DNA of 64,000 nt from a virus. Location of the stretch: IMG/VR virus record IMGVR_UViG_3300012001_000006, positions 1-64,000 of that record; one strand, given 5' to 3'. The notes under the pieces were generated by a model that saw only the letters and a program-made list of their open reading frames with translations, ran no database searches and was not told the origin of the DNA. Of the stretch, positions 26,746 through 31,071 are shown piece by piece. Numbering within the stretch: position 1 is the stretch's first letter; each line of letters starts with the position of its first letter. The position numbers and the translations under genes are program-made.

Positions 26746-26931
26746 TCAAAGCCGGAGCAGCCCATGTTTCGTTCCGGTCGTATTGACCAGGATGATGTTG
26801 CCTAATTTCGGATGATTAGCTCTATATACGAGGGACTCCCCCAAGTCTAACTGATCTTGAACTGTCGACTCCTCCAACGTGTCGACAAATGATTGCAGGC
26901 TAAGAACGGACGTTTTTGCTGAATGTGGCAT
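26746..26931 (-). CDS. small hypothetical protein, 61 aa
   Basis: A monocistronic gene with its own promoter (26974-26994), a GGAGAG ribosome site and a terminator (26703-26726). The sequence (LQSFVDTLEESTVQDQLDLGES, then NIILVNTTGTKHGL) is acidic in the middle with a beta-like end. No family is known. Its independent, operator-controlled transcription opposite the XRE gene is the position of a cro-like or early regulatory gene in many phages, but no DNA-binding motif is visible. Confidence 0.65.
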   Translation of the reverse strand: MPHSAKTSVLSLQSFVDTLEESTVQDQLDLGESLVYRANHPKLGNIILVNTTGTKHGLLRL

Positions 26932-26994: not shown

Positions 26995-27184
26995 ACTTTT
27001 ATTGTGGAAATTGTTAATCTTCGTTTCTTCTTTACTGCATAAATCGGGACTGAATTGGGGCTGCTTTTTAAATCTTATTAAAACGATAACGGTAAGTCAC
27101 TAAGAAGTAATAGTTTATGAACTATAATATAAACGTGAGATGAATCACTTACCTGCCGGTCGTCCGGCGCTGAATGGAGAAAAC
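26995..27184. promoter_or_regulatory. divergent control region upstream of the XRE gene
   Basis: An AT-rich stretch without a gene. It holds a degenerate operator (AAGTCA at 27094-27099, then CTAA and a poor second half) and a plus-strand TATAAT (27123-27128) that should start the XRE transcript about 50 nt before its ATG. No clear -35 is seen. The half-operator just upstream of the -10 suggests autoregulation of the XRE gene. Confidence 0.5.
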
Positions 27185-27625
27185 ATGACTAAAGAACCCA
27201 AAGCCTCAAAGGCGACGAAGAGTCCGACCGTTGCCCAGTATCTTGAAATGCAATTCAATCTCTGCGGCAAGTCGCAGATAGAGATCGCCACCGAATGCGG
27301 CTTTCCAAAGCCAAACATTCTCTCGATGATCAAGCAGGGCAAAACAAAACTACCCATCTCGAAGATCGCCGTAATGGCGAAATCGCTCGGTGTTGATCCG
27401 CTGCATCTGTTCAAATTATGTATGCAGGAATACGAGCCGGCGAATTGGGAGGCAATCCAAGAAACAATCTTGAAGCAGCCCGTCATCACCGCTAACGAGA
27501 TGGAGATCATTCGGGTGATTCGTAAATCAAACGTGATCAATCCGAAGCTGCGCACGAATGAGGAACGCATTCGTTTGCTCGACGTGATTGCGACGTTGAA
27601 GCCTGAAAACGCCACCAACGACTGA
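27185..27625 (+). CDS. XRE-type helix-turn-helix regulator, candidate phage repressor
   Basis: Residues 25-80 form a helix-turn-helix: GKSQIEIATECGFPKPNILSM (split as helices 2 and 3), then QGKTKLPISKIAVMAKSLGV and DPLHLFKL, the usual XRE end. The first 15 residues are Lys/Thr-rich; the C-terminal 55 residues are helical and could dimerise. The ATG at 27185 follows TGGAGA; a longer frame from 27140 has no site. It is the first gene of the plus-strand island, has its own terminator, and is the best candidate to bind the 6-4-6 palindromes, which have the one-turn half-site spacing typical of XRE dimers. That is inference. Confidence 0.8.
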   Translation: MTKEPKASKATKSPTVAQYLEMQFNLCGKSQIEIATECGFPKPNILSMIKQGKTKLPISKIAVMAKSLGVDPLHLFKLCMQEYEPANWEAIQETILKQPVITANEMEIIRVIRKSNVINPKLRTNEERIRLLDVIATLKPENATND

Positions 27626-27644
27626 TCCATTCTCACCCTCAAAA

Positions 27645-27664
27645 AAGGCACCTTCGGGTGCCTT
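27645..27664 (+). terminator. rho-independent terminator after the XRE gene
   Basis: An 8-bp stem AAGGCACC/GGTGCCTT with a TTCG loop and T-runs on both strands, 19 nt after the stop codon. It may work in both directions. Confidence 0.9.
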
Positions 27665-27701
27665 TTTATTGTCGTTTTATTGGACGAGAACAACTATGCT
27701 C

Positions 27702-27730
27702 TTGTGTAACATTGTGCGCAAGTGTATAAA
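27702..27730 (+). promoter_or_regulatory. candidate promoter of the Arc-LuxR pair
   Basis: TTGTGT (27702-27707), a 17-nt spacer and TATAAA (27725-27730). The -10 lies inside the palindrome 27719-27740, so a bound regulator would compete with polymerase. The match is modest and other starts nearer 27834 are possible. Confidence 0.35.
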
Positions 27731-27740
27731 AATACACTTG
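27719..27740. promoter_or_regulatory. 22-bp perfect palindrome, lux-box-like
   Basis: CAAGTGTAT-AAAA-ATACACTTG, a perfect dyad with 9-bp arms. Its central 20 bp have the lux-box layout TGTA-N6-TACA bound by LuxR-type dimers. It lies 94 bp upstream of the Arc-like gene and in the control region of the luxR-like gene. The identification rests on geometry and context. It could instead be the Arc-like protein's operator. Confidence 0.55.
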
Positions 27741-27833
27741 ACAGATTAAGTGCGAAGTGATTCGACTACCTGTAATATATGACTTCATGCTGTCGCTACA
27801 TGGTGAAAATGATATTTTGTACACTATGCGGCT

Positions 27834-28154: not shown

Positions 28155-29276
28155 GTGAATCGCATCGCGCGCGTCTCAAAAATAGCAGTAAGCAAAGACG
28201 GCTATATCCGAATGCGGAAAGCTGCATTCAAGAAGTTGGCATTTCAACAGTTGGTGGCGAATGCTGATCCGGAATTGCTTAGTGAATTGATCGGTCAGGC
28301 GATCCCGTCCCGCATTGCAGGTTTTTGCGAATGGGTGAGCGACACAGCGCCGGTGGTCAGCGTCGGTTTTGATTGGCACATCAATGACGAACCAAACCGC
28401 GTCGCCATCTTGTCTAATGCGCCTCGCACCAATCTGATGATGGTCAACGCGAAGGGCTACGATTACGGGCCGCAGCGCACGTCGCGGTTCCTACTAACTT
28501 GGATTAATACCTTTCTCCGCCCGCGATTATCGCCTCTCGCGCGGCAAGATATTGTGTCGAACAGTAGCGGATGGCGCGGCGGCTACCTGTCCATTCTGGA
28601 CAACTTGACGACAGAAATGGCGCTCTACAAACAGGTTGAGCGGCGGGTGCGCGCGCTTGGCTTTGACTACACCGCGTACGGCATTCGGATGGCCTTCCCT
28701 ATCATCCGGCCAACTGTGTGGACGCACAACAATTACCCCGAAGAGTGGCAGCGGCGTTACGCAGAAAAGGATTACGTCGATATCGACCCTACCGTTCAGC
28801 GCGCGATCGAGTCGCCGCTGCCGATGGTTTGGTCAGACGCATTATTTGAGGATCAGCCAGAATTCTGGCGTGATGCGCAAAGGCACGGCTTGCGCTTTGG
28901 GTGGGCGCAGTCGTCAAGGGATGCCACCGGCTCGGTCGGTCTTCTCAGCGTGGCGCGACGCGATGGACCGATCACGGACGCCGAACTGCAAGAAAAGCAG
29001 CACAAGTTGTCGATGCTCGTCCAAATCACACACGCCGGCATGTCCAGGATTATGGCGCCCGCACTTGCGCCAGGGCTGCGCGCGACCGTAACCTCTGGAG
29101 AGCGCGAGATTTTACGCTGGACGGCCGAGGGGAAAACATCAGCCGAGATTGCGAGCATTTTGGAATTACCGGAGCGCACCGTCACGTTTCGACGCACCGC
29201 CGTAATTAGAAAGTTAGGCGCCGTGAATATCACCCAAGCGACGGTGATGGCGTTCTCTCTCGGGATGATTTGCTAG
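28155..29276 (+). CDS. LuxR-type quorum-sensing receptor with RsaM-like N-terminal domain
   Basis: Residues 140-285 are an autoinducer-binding domain with the invariant contacts Trp and Tyr in YPEEWQRRYAEKDYVDIDP (Asp too), the Trp in PMVWSD, and a Gly in GSVGLLSVAR. Residues 310-373 are the LuxR helix-turn-helix (SGEREILRWTAEGKTSAEI, then ERTVTFRRTAVIRKLGAVN). Ordinary receptors are about 240 residues; this one has about 130 extra at the front: DGYIRM, GFCEWVSDTAPVVSVGFDW and TNLMMVNAKGYDYGPQRTS. From memory these resemble RsaM (DUF4902) proteins, which modulate quorum sensing beside luxR/luxI in Burkholderia and Pseudomonas. No luxI is in the window, so it would sense host signal. It starts with GTG. 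Confidence 0.9.
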   Translation: MNRIARVSKIAVSKDGYIRMRKAAFKKLAFQQLVANADPELLSELIGQAIPSRIAGFCEWVSDTAPVVSVGFDWHINDEPNRVAILSNAPRTNLMMVNAKGYDYGPQRTSRFLLTWINTFLRPRLSPLARQDIVSNSSGWRGGYLSILDNLTTEMALYKQVERRVRALGFDYTAYGIRMAFPIIRPTVWTHNNYPEEWQRRYAEKDYVDIDPTVQRAIESPLPMVWSDALFEDQPEFWRDAQRHGLRFGWAQSSRDATGSVGLLSVARRDGPITDAELQEKQHKLSMLVQITHAGMSRIMAPALAPGLRATVTSGEREILRWTAEGKTSAEIASILELPERTVTFRRTAVIRKLGAVNITQATVMAFSLGMIC

Positions 29277-29285
29277 AAAAATAAT

Positions 29286-29301
29286 AAGTCATTGATGACT
29301 A
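29286..29301. promoter_or_regulatory. operator AAGTCA-TTGA-TGACTA
   Basis: A 6-4-6 palindrome 9 bp after the luxR-like stop and about 60 bp before the excisionase-like gene. TATAAG/GATAAT boxes at 29321-29331 could be the -10. It would place the excisionase-like gene under the same regulator as the late and replication genes. Confidence 0.6.
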
Positions 29302-29360
29302 TCATTTGCGCCAATTATTGTATAAGATAATGCCATTACTTACCGAGTGGCGAGATAGCT

Positions 29361-29705
29361 GTGAGAACCCTAGACATTGATGAATGCGCCGAATTCCTGA
29401 AGGTTGATCGCTCGACCGCATTGCGACTGGCCGGCGGTGGCGAGCTACCTGGCGCCAAGATCGGACGCGCGTGGGTGTTCCTGCTGGACGACTTGGTGGA
29501 GTATCTGCGCACACAGGTGCGCTCTCAGGCGCGGCAGCGTCAAGCGGAAGCCGACACCGATGGCGCGCTGAACAAGGCGGTCGTCAATAACGCCTCGTTC
29601 GTGATGTCACCCATGCGCCGGCGGCCGAAGAATGCGGCCCCCGACCTGTCAGGCTACCCTGACCTTACCAGAGCTTCCCCGCCAAATTTGAGCCGCGCAG
29701 GTTAG
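29361..29705 (+). CDS. excisionase-like HTH protein (HTH_17/AlpA type)
   Basis: Starts with GTG. Residues 3-50 form a MerR/excisionase-like winged helix-turn-helix: LDIDECAEFLKVDRSTALRL, then GGELPGAKIGRAWVFLLDD and LVEYLRTQV. Such proteins bend attachment-site DNA and set integrase direction. The C-terminal 60 residues are basic and Pro-rich and look disordered. It converges with the integrase gene, overlapping its end by 41 bases. This supports a role in excision control, though antisense effects between the two transcripts are also possible. Confidence 0.7.
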   Translation: MRTLDIDECAEFLKVDRSTALRLAGGGELPGAKIGRAWVFLLDDLVEYLRTQVRSQARQRQAEADTDGALNKAVVNNASFVMSPMRRRPKNAAPDLSGYPDLTRASPPNLSRAG

Positions 29706-30828
29706 CGTAACGCGCCAACATTCTGGTCGAACTGTGGCCGGTGATCTTCATAATCTCTGTGTCCGACAATGTGGTGCGTTCGAAGAAGCGGGATGTCGCC
29801 TCATGACGCAGATCGTGGAAGGTTAGATCGGGACAGCCCGCCGTCTCGAAGACGCGCGAATACTGCTGCGACATCGCCGCGCTCAATCGCTCCAACGTCT
29901 GCCGCTCCACGCCCCCATCCCACCAAGGGAACAGCCTCTCTTTGTTGAACTTGAAGTCTTCCATGCCGCGCGTGCCGGCGCCCACATGCTCCAGGTACTC
30001 GCGCAGTTTGGCAACCGCGACCGTCGACAACGGCACCTGTCGTTTGCTGCCGTTCTTTGTTTTCTCCAGGAAGATCGTACACAATTCAAAGTTCAGTTGA
30101 TCGAGCGTGAGCGTGTACATTTCCCGCATTCTCATCGCCGTCTCCAGCGCCAGGTCAAACAGCATCTCGATGGCCGCCTGGTAGCGCATCTCAAGCGCCC
30201 TCTGCTTGTCGGCCGACTTCGCGCCCGCCATCACCGCGCGAATCGCCGGCTCTTCCAGCACACCTACGCGGCGATCGCGCGACACGTCTTCGCGCCTGGT
30301 GTGATGTGGGTTGTTCTTGGCCGCCTCGAACGATTCCTTGTCGGTGTATTGCGCGTAGCGTTTTGGCAGTTGACGAATTGGATTGAGCGCGAGCGCGACG
30401 ATGTTTTTATTGGACGCCCAATCGAAGCATCGAGCGAGCGCGCCGACGTGATGTCGAATCGTTGATGGCGCGATATTCAACTCGATCTTCATACTGCGAA
30501 TCCACTTCTCAACCCACACGTAGTTGATCAACTTGATCGGCGTCGCGCCGATTCTGGCATACGCCACGTTGAGCAGGTTCACGTCCGATTGCGGTATCGT
30601 GTTGTGCGCGAGATAGCCGCGAATCACTTCGGCCAAGATGGTGTAGACGGCGGTTCGGGTGTCCAGCTCCGGCGGCACGATGCCGTTATCGAGCAGCGCT
30701 TCGATCTTCGCGATGTAGGCGTCGCCTTCTTCTTCGTTGTTGGTGTAGTAGCGCCACGGCCGCGGCAGCAATTTTGCGCGCTTGACGACGTACTCCCACG
30801 AGTCGCCTTTCTTCCGTTTCATAGCCAT
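29665..30828 (-). CDS. int: tyrosine recombinase (phage integrase)
   Basis: The start is the ATG at 30828 (MAMKRKKGD) 6 nt after GGGAGG; an upstream TTG has none. Catalytic residues are present: Arg in ETAMRMREMYTLTLDQL, Lys in EKTKNGSKRQVPL, HDLRHEATSRFFE (HxxR), GHSSTRMLARYANLR (second His/Trp position and Tyr nucleophile). Residues 90-190 are the core-binding SAM-like domain. It catalyses integration at the tRNA-Cys gene whose 3' half forms the adjacent attP (30997-31046). The N-terminal 60 residues should bind arm sites. Confidence 0.93.
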   Translation of the reverse strand: MAMKRKKGDSWEYVVKRAKLLPRPWRYYTNNEEEGDAYIAKIEALLDNGIVPPELDTRTAVYTILAEVIRGYLAHNTIPQSDVNLLNVAYARIGATPIKLINYVWVEKWIRSMKIELNIAPSTIRHHVGALARCFDWASNKNIVALALNPIRQLPKRYAQYTDKESFEAAKNNPHHTRREDVSRDRRVGVLEEPAIRAVMAGAKSADKQRALEMRYQAAIEMLFDLALETAMRMREMYTLTLDQLNFELCTIFLEKTKNGSKRQVPLSTVAVAKLREYLEHVGAGTRGMEDFKFNKERLFPWWDGGVERQTLERLSAAMSQQYSRVFETAGCPDLTFHDLRHEATSRFFERTTLSDTEIMKITGHSSTRMLARYANLRGSNLAGKLW

Positions 30829-30863
30829 CTTTTTCCTCCCGTTGACGGCCAACAGGCCGAAGT

Positions 30864-30969: not shown

Positions 30970-31071
30970 AAGTCTTTGATTCTATTACCTAAAAACTGGA
31001 GGCGGGGGTCGGGATCGAACCGGCGTAAACGGCTTTGCAGGCCGCTGTCGTTTGTTTAGAATCAAAGACTT
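30970..31071. repeat. 15-bp inverted repeat flanking attP
   Basis: AAGTCTTTGATTCTA at 30970-30984 and its exact reverse complement at 31057-31071 bracket the tRNA fragment, 12 bp and 10 bp from its ends. They may be binding sites in the intasome, or form a stem around the tRNA segment in RNA. Confidence 0.65.
30997..31046 (-). other. attP: putative attP core: 3' half of a tRNA-Cys gene
   Basis: On the minus strand the sequence runs from the anticodon stem (GCGGC), loop CTGCAAA with anticodon GCA, through the T-arm (GTTCGATCC) to the acceptor strand, discriminator T and CCA. The 5' acceptor and D-arm are absent, so it is not a working tRNA gene. It is the identity block that would rebuild the host tRNA-Cys gene on integration. 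It lies directly upstream of the integrase gene. Confidence 0.85.

Follow-up and report, generated by a model that had tools for sequence, protein, structure and literature searches.

An RsaM–LuxR fusion encoded by a temperate siphophage, a candidate density-sensing regulator of lysogeny

A gene of a temperate phage encodes a protein of 373 residues in which an RsaM (DUF4902) domain, an autoinducer-binding domain and a LuxR-type helix-turn-helix (HTH) are joined, and this fusion is genuine. The gene lies in the stretch of 64,000 nucleotides analysed here (the window; positions 1 to 64,000 of the IMG/VR virus record IMGVR_UViG_3300012001_000006), where it is the second gene of a two-gene cassette that begins with the gene of an Arc-like DNA-binding protein. 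The sequence shows the three domains, the cassette, its insertion between an XRE regulator and the excisionase-like gene xis, a conserved candidate operator and the phage setting. The role of the protein as a density-sensing switch is probable, and we see about an even chance that it is an acyl-homoserine-lactone (AHL)-responsive lysogeny regulator; it would be a LuxR solo to which RsaM is fused, and its gene the output gene of a mobile Arc–RsaM-LuxR cassette. An RsaM-HTH form described below is new; the domain architecture of the window protein itself was already known. The gene and its domains are located as follows:

28155 to 29276, plus strand: RsaM-LuxR fusion, 373 aa, GTG start
28191 to 28514, plus strand: RsaM / DUF4902 domain, residues 13-120, from Pfam PF16245, 4o2h and the RsaM alignment
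28620 to 29036, plus strand: autoinducer-binding domain, residues 156-294, from PF03472 and invariant columns
29091 to 29252, plus strand: LuxR/GerE HTH, residues 313-366, from PF00196

In a Pfam search, DUF4902 was found at residues 13-120 (E=1.3e-26, 93.3 bits, against a curated cut-off of 25 bits), Autoind_bind (PF03472) at residues 156-294 (E=1.1e-36, 126 bits) and GerE (PF00196) at residues 313-366 (E=1.6e-14, 53.7 bits). A phmmer search of the PDB matched residues 13-114 to chain 4o2h, the crystal structure of the RsaM protein BCAM1869 (E=4e-15), and residues 141-372 to RhlR and QscR chains (1e-50 to 1e-46), with SdiA also returned. The original prediction, that the extra N-terminal part is an RsaM-type domain placed before complete autoinducer-binding and LuxR HTH domains, is thus confirmed, and the profile check that it had called for assigned the N-terminal part to RsaM and the rest to LuxR. 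In the alignment with five bacterial LuxRs, the ligand-site columns W198, Y202, D211, P212, W226 and G249 and the HTH columns E316, L320 and G326 are all kept in the fusion; these nine residues, invariant in the alignment, are the positions usually named for AHL and DNA binding in work on TraR and LuxR. The RsaM part is 25-38% identical to stand-alone RsaMs, shares with them the invariant residues G56, E59, W74, N93 and D103, and falls inside the RsaM family in the tree. RsaM proteins have in their core a conserved Trp quartet, which is missing in some members; judged by alignment only, the fusion keeps W60 and W74, has F72 at the third position and lacks the fourth. Because this part is fused to LuxR in one 373-aa frame, it is called here an RsaM domain and not an RsaM. 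The open frame of the fusion reaches back 5' as far as the stop of the Arc-like gene. The AlphaFold model, calculated from a three-sequence alignment, has a pLDDT of 51, and its domain interface is not usable.

The window belongs to an IMG/VR virus record of 81,265 bases. The record has no end repeats and, as relatives measure 105-118 kb, is suggested to be incomplete. It encodes virion proteins (terminase, portal, scaffold, major head protein, tape measure and tail-J), a replication and recombination set (DnaE-type polymerase, primase, helicase, ligase and UvsX-like recombinase), and also CobS/CobT-like proteins, a ParB-like protein, an integrase and an excisionase. Judged by this gene content, the carrier is a genuine temperate siphophage; the terminase, portal, head and tail genes bear out the earlier statement that the receptor is encoded by a phage. 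The phage polymerase shares 66-74% identity with the polymerases of several other IMG/VR contigs and 57% with the polymerase of circular Acinetobacter elements of ~107-115 kb, which we take to be phage-plasmids. A Burkholderiaceae genome (G156) contains a related prophage (CobT 64%) whose integration site adjoins a tRNA-Cys gene. The surroundings of the cassette contain the following genes and a probable attachment site:

26746 to 26931, minus strand: small counter-oriented ORF, 61 aa, divergent from the XRE gene and kept in relatives
27140 to 27625, plus strand: XRE/CI-like regulator, 161 aa (phrog_8, 2e-8), a core gene of the phage group
27834 to 28082, plus strand: Arc-like DNA-binding protein, 82 aa (PF03869, 27.4 bits, above cut-off), first gene of the cassette
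29361 to 29705, plus strand: excisionase-like (HTH_17) gene xis (PF12728, 3.6e-12), 85 bp 3' of the fusion
29665 to 30852, minus strand: tyrosine integrase, 395 aa (PF00589, 1.9e-20)
31026 to 31047, minus strand: probable attP core, a 22-bp match to the tRNA-Cys anticodon region, the integration site of the G156 prophage

The integrase, excisionase-like and repressor-like neighbours that had been proposed for the receptor gene are therefore real, and the Arc-like gene, about which the original prediction was silent, is part of the cassette. Since the 22-bp tRNA-Cys segment adjoins the integrase gene, the window phage probably integrates. The XRE/CI-like gene is also present in the relatives of the phage and in the ~107-kb elements of A. 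baumannii; tblastn matched the 61-aa ORF in seven related sequences (L003-L008 and L011), and a 64-aa ORF stands at the same place in G156.

The cassette, in the order Arc-like gene and RsaM-LuxR fusion, sits between the XRE repressor-like gene and xis. These two genes are 1,735 bp apart in the window, as against 364 bp in the relative L007 and 315 bp in G156. The extra DNA consists of the two cassette genes, and the slot is empty in both of these otherwise collinear relatives. In L057 and L062, the slot is occupied by a CI-like repressor, which indicates that it is a place for lysogeny regulators. In L004 (1552-3714), the slot is taken by the genes of a 390-aa protein that weakly matches GmrSD_N and of a 328-aa partner, possibly a defence pair. 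Among 36 related records, an autoinducer-binding domain was matched in one, the phage of L007, which is the closest relative. This is an unrelated LuxR-like protein of 245 aa encoded outside the slot (L040 1264-2001), with a weak match (31.8 bits), a sub-threshold HTH and without the usual D-P pair.

A census of PF16245 covered genomes sampled evenly from the GTDB family, order and class surrounding Massilia frigida (394, 399 and 369, partly overlapping; ~1,150, a sample), together with public phage and plasmid records; at most of the loci the frames were inspected for fusions. It gave 63 RsaM domains, those of the window and the public records included. Stand-alone proteins account for 59 of them, and for 54 of these a luxR was found in the fetched stretch. 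The remaining four are fused, and all of them are phage-borne and adjoin a phage XRE repressor. Three mutually unlike phage types carry the fused RsaMs seen here. A 515-aa RsaM frame in G146 was rejected as a fusion, being a read-through frame over a normal rsaM. Matches named "Acinetobacter phage MD-2021a" (CAKLQH020000009.1 / CAKLQF020000013.1, L024) were rejected as phage because they look like host chromosome, with luxR-rsaM-luxI amid acyl-CoA genes on a 127-kb contig.

One of the fused proteins comes from a Burkholderiaceae genome, G188, and differs from the window protein in that the AHL domain is missing. It is an RsaM-HTH protein of 199 aa (DUF4902 77 bits, GerE 47 bits), which stands with its Arc-like partner at L079 1302-1901 and 1978-2238 (G188:C11, ~410.7-411.7 kb), in the order XRE gene, Arc-like gene, RsaM-HTH gene. 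Its identity to the window is 44% in RsaM, 55% in the HTH and 60% over 68 aa in Arc. The carrier is a complete siphophage prophage with terminase, portal, head, integrase and O-like replication genes, unrelated to the window phage; PF16245 was absent from every other genome of the G188 genus, in a search of 15. The RsaM domains of the window and G188 are sisters in the tree (99/99 support). In the RsaM tree, the fusions need two changes, and a single clade was not rejected by the AU test (p=0.449); the supported branches of the HTH tree, which comes with long-branch warnings, force two fusion origins. The fusion may have arisen once or twice. Natural RsaM-LuxR fusions, above all this one, in which RsaM replaces the AHL domain before the HTH, point to a direct action of RsaM on LuxR-type proteins, and they give compact constructs for testing it.

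The other two fusions are from Massilia. The proposal that fusion of receptor and modulator would be of a new kind did not hold, as a "chimeric RsaM-LuxR solo", type 8, was listed for two Massilia species in the 2023 review of Venturi and co-workers, where it is treated as a bacterial gene and the word phage does not occur (PMC10710839). We infer these species to be M. violaceinigra and M. frigida. The M. violaceinigra fusion (NZ_CP024609.1 71374-72510; L018 6007-7143; the strain B2 is a glacier isolate) lies on an 87,120-bp circular "plasmid", which encodes an SU10-type portal, an N4-gp56-like capsid, a weak terminase match, a tail fiber, ParAB and integrases. It stands 3' of an XRE repressor, co-directional with it and beside a YdaS gene. 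The M. frigida fusion (L027 5579-6745) is 92% identical to it, on a collinear contig where an XRE repressor and a YdaS gene likewise adjoin it, and both copies have the AHL domain. By the genes around it, the "chimeric LuxR solo" of M. violaceinigra is a phage gene, carried by a phage-plasmid, and the record is to be corrected in this respect. The Massilia chimera resembles the window fusion in the order of RsaM, autoinducer-binding domain and HTH and has no luxI nearby; the search for luxI found no match in the 81-kb record of the window phage, with control genomes giving no match either. However, the two are 22% identical, and no Arc-like gene is annotated beside the Massilia copy.

Four elements of possible regulatory meaning were found around the cassette:

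27642 to 27667, plus strand: intrinsic terminator of the repressor-like gene, 11-bp stem and T tail
27719 to 27740, no strand: O1, 22-bp palindrome CAAGTGTAT-AAAA-ATACACTTG with perfect arms
27783 to 27803, plus strand: O2, CTTCATGCTGTCGCTACATGG, 5' of the Arc gene, conserved in G188
29287 to 29300, no strand: palindrome AGTCAT-TG-ATGACT, before the xis -10 (TATAAGAT, 29321-29328)

The terminator after the XRE-like gene indicates that the cassette is a separate transcription unit. No terminator was found between the fusion and xis, and in the promoter scan the cassette lacks a convincing sigma-70 -10. In both the window phage and G188, the palindrome CAAGTGTA-N6-TACACTTG followed by ACA is present 5' of the Arc gene; all 16 specified bases of the O1 arms are identical between them, whereas the centre and flanks differ. 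The O2 element CTTCATGCTGTMGCTACATGG is likewise kept before the Arc gene, and its 17-mer recurs exactly before both G188 cassette genes. The unit is a cassette that has moved, with its own putative operator, between unrelated phages. O1 overlaps a -35-like TTGACA (27738-27743) by 3 bases, and its centre is ~8 bp 5' of this hexamer, that is, near -43 if the spacer is 17 bp. A centre near -43 is a class II LuxR-like position. Arc-family proteins, too, bind palindromes, and O1, a candidate operator, may be a site of the Arc protein and not of the LuxR HTH. A search of the window at up to 3 mismatches, including the small-ORF and xis promoters, found no other O1-like site. The elements AGTCA-N4-TGACT and GTATAAGAT of the xis promoter are common to L007 and G156. 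As the xis palindrome is present in relatives without the cassette, it is older than the cassette and a core-phage operator, and the idea that the cassette itself acts on it was dropped. Roughly 70 bp 5' of the M. violaceinigra fusion gene stands a TACACTTG half-site resembling the one in O1.

The closest functional parallel is given by the phage modules of Apop and ARM81ld (PMC6456758, PMC10432266, PMC9894119), in which a phage LuxR solo without luxI adjoins an XRE gene. There is precedent for C4-HSL setting off lysis through phage operons of xre and luxR that are accompanied by a counter-oriented small ORF (PMC10432266; PMC9894119); in Apop, XRE and AHL-bound LuxR switch on the small ORF, which inactivates the repressor (PMC10432266). 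The window has a counter-oriented small ORF 5' of its XRE gene, which may or may not have a similar role, and its XRE gene stands 5' of the fusion on the same strand, as in these modules, although only in the window does an Arc gene lie between. There xre and luxR form one operon, whereas here the terminator at 27642-27667 splits them; the Apop and ARM81ld LuxR domains are only ~29% identical to that of the window, and no RsaM domain is reported for them. Prophage-borne AHL receptors controlling lysogeny are also represented by the LuxI/LuxR of Phaeobacter prophages, which, however, make their own AHL; RsaM is not mentioned there (PMC13345283). The stand-alone RsaMs BCAM1869/4o2h, AbaM and TofM are homologous to the RsaM domain of the fusion but are separate proteins of 140-170 aa beside luxI/luxR. 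Members of the family are marked by a novel alpha/beta dimeric fold. How RsaM exerts its strong control over AHL quorum sensing is not understood; the protein forms dimers, binds neither AHL nor DNA, represses host AHL production in bacteria and has large regulons (PMC10710839).

Our best reading of the fusion is that it regulates phage lysogeny in the XRE–LuxR manner, its RsaM part acting in cis on the LuxR output domain; we think that this could go either way. In its favour are the domain matches with the intact ligand site, the lack of a luxI match in the record, the CI-like repressor that takes the slot in L057 and L062, the position of the G188 and Massilia genes beside an XRE gene, and the precedent of the phage xre-luxR operons. 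It is proposed that host-made AHL would bind the LuxR domain of the fusion, and that the fused RsaM would act in cis on the receptor, as a dimerisation or anti-activator module, and set the threshold; bacterial RsaM, a protein of its own, holds LuxR circuits in check, whereas here it would do so within the same receptor chain. The fusion would then act at O1, in line with the LuxR class II-like spacing, and control its own operon, and read-through into xis could couple host density to excision or induction. Alternatively, the fusion and the XRE protein encoded next to it may act together on the divergent small ORF, in the manner of Apop and ARM81ld. The terminator between XRE and fusion, where the known modules share an operon, is counted against this explanation, and so are the lack of a second O1-like site in the window, the greater age of the xis palindrome, the possible assignment of O1 to Arc and the G188 homologue without the AHL domain. 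If the G188 cassette works, it works without an AHL domain, and AHL sensing therefore cannot be the whole story of the family.

Other functions have to be weighed, and the probability given above to an AHL-using lysogeny regulator overlaps in part with those of the next two explanations. The cassette might be cargo that rewires host quorum sensing by pairing with or titrating host LuxR, RsaM or AHL, or by binding host promoters, with little role in lysis or lysogeny. The GmrSD_N-like gene and its partner in the slot of L004 are non-lysogeny cargo, bacterial RsaM has the repressive effect on host AHL production and the large regulons mentioned above (PMC10710839), and the cassette, behind a terminator, has an upstream region to itself. 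However, an XRE repressor adjoins the gene in all three unrelated carriers, and the cassette-specific operator is kept in G188. The recognition helix of the fusion reads TFRRTAV, as against NFHxxNA in the aligned RsaM-linked bacterial LuxRs, which suggests a DNA target of its own, and we regard such cargo as rather improbable. Sensing or dimerisation might, on the other hand, be the real task of RsaM, with an AHL domain that the family can do without, so that the cue would be other than AHL, or AHL would be perceived indirectly via docking to host LuxR. The 199-aa G188 protein, which keeps RsaM, HTH, Arc partner and operator without the AHL domain, fits this, as does the dimeric RsaM that binds neither AHL nor DNA (PMC10710839). 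We nevertheless consider it unlikely: the AHL domain is present in the window and both Massilia proteins, all usual ligand residues are intact in the window protein, and the RsaM-HTH form is known from one example, which may be a decayed copy.

The rarity of the fusion and the two of four Trp residues in the window protein could also mean that the acquired gene is decaying or without function, or that a host rsaM and luxR were falsely joined in assembly. This is very improbable, as the 373-aa frame is intact, the GC3 of the gene (0.67) is near the phage value, gene order and operator recur around an independent homologue in another genome, and the two Massilia fusions are 92% identical to each other.

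Returning to the lysogeny regulator, a wider form of it can be put forward tentatively and with some doubt, namely that the mobile Arc-RsaM-(AHL domain)-HTH cassette constitutes a phage-specific class of lysogeny regulators among unrelated phages, in which RsaM would be a cis gate and the AHL domain would be optional. If true, such a class would show that RsaM works by direct contact with LuxR-type regulators. Few quorum-sensing receptors are listed for phages, and the fusion extends them by a new sensory architecture. As to its distribution, peptide patterns found no close relatives of the whole fusion in IMG/VR and GTDB contigs, and profile scans of IMG/VR, which was searched by short peptide patterns only, with the LuxR-domain, RsaM-domain and Arc alignments returned only one stand-alone rsaM at a provirus edge; either the cassette is rare or the pattern search was too narrow. 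The latter gene (L066 9995-10405) is Burkholderia-like and, located at the very end of a provirus contig, is probably host flank. In the record of the window phage itself, GC of the last ~1.3 kb (80001-81265; L002 18002-19266) is far below the rest, the value of 0.348 in the last bin being underestimated, as this bin is short, and two ABC-transporter-type ATPase genes (L002 11952-12944, 13987-14646) are located near the ParB-like gene.
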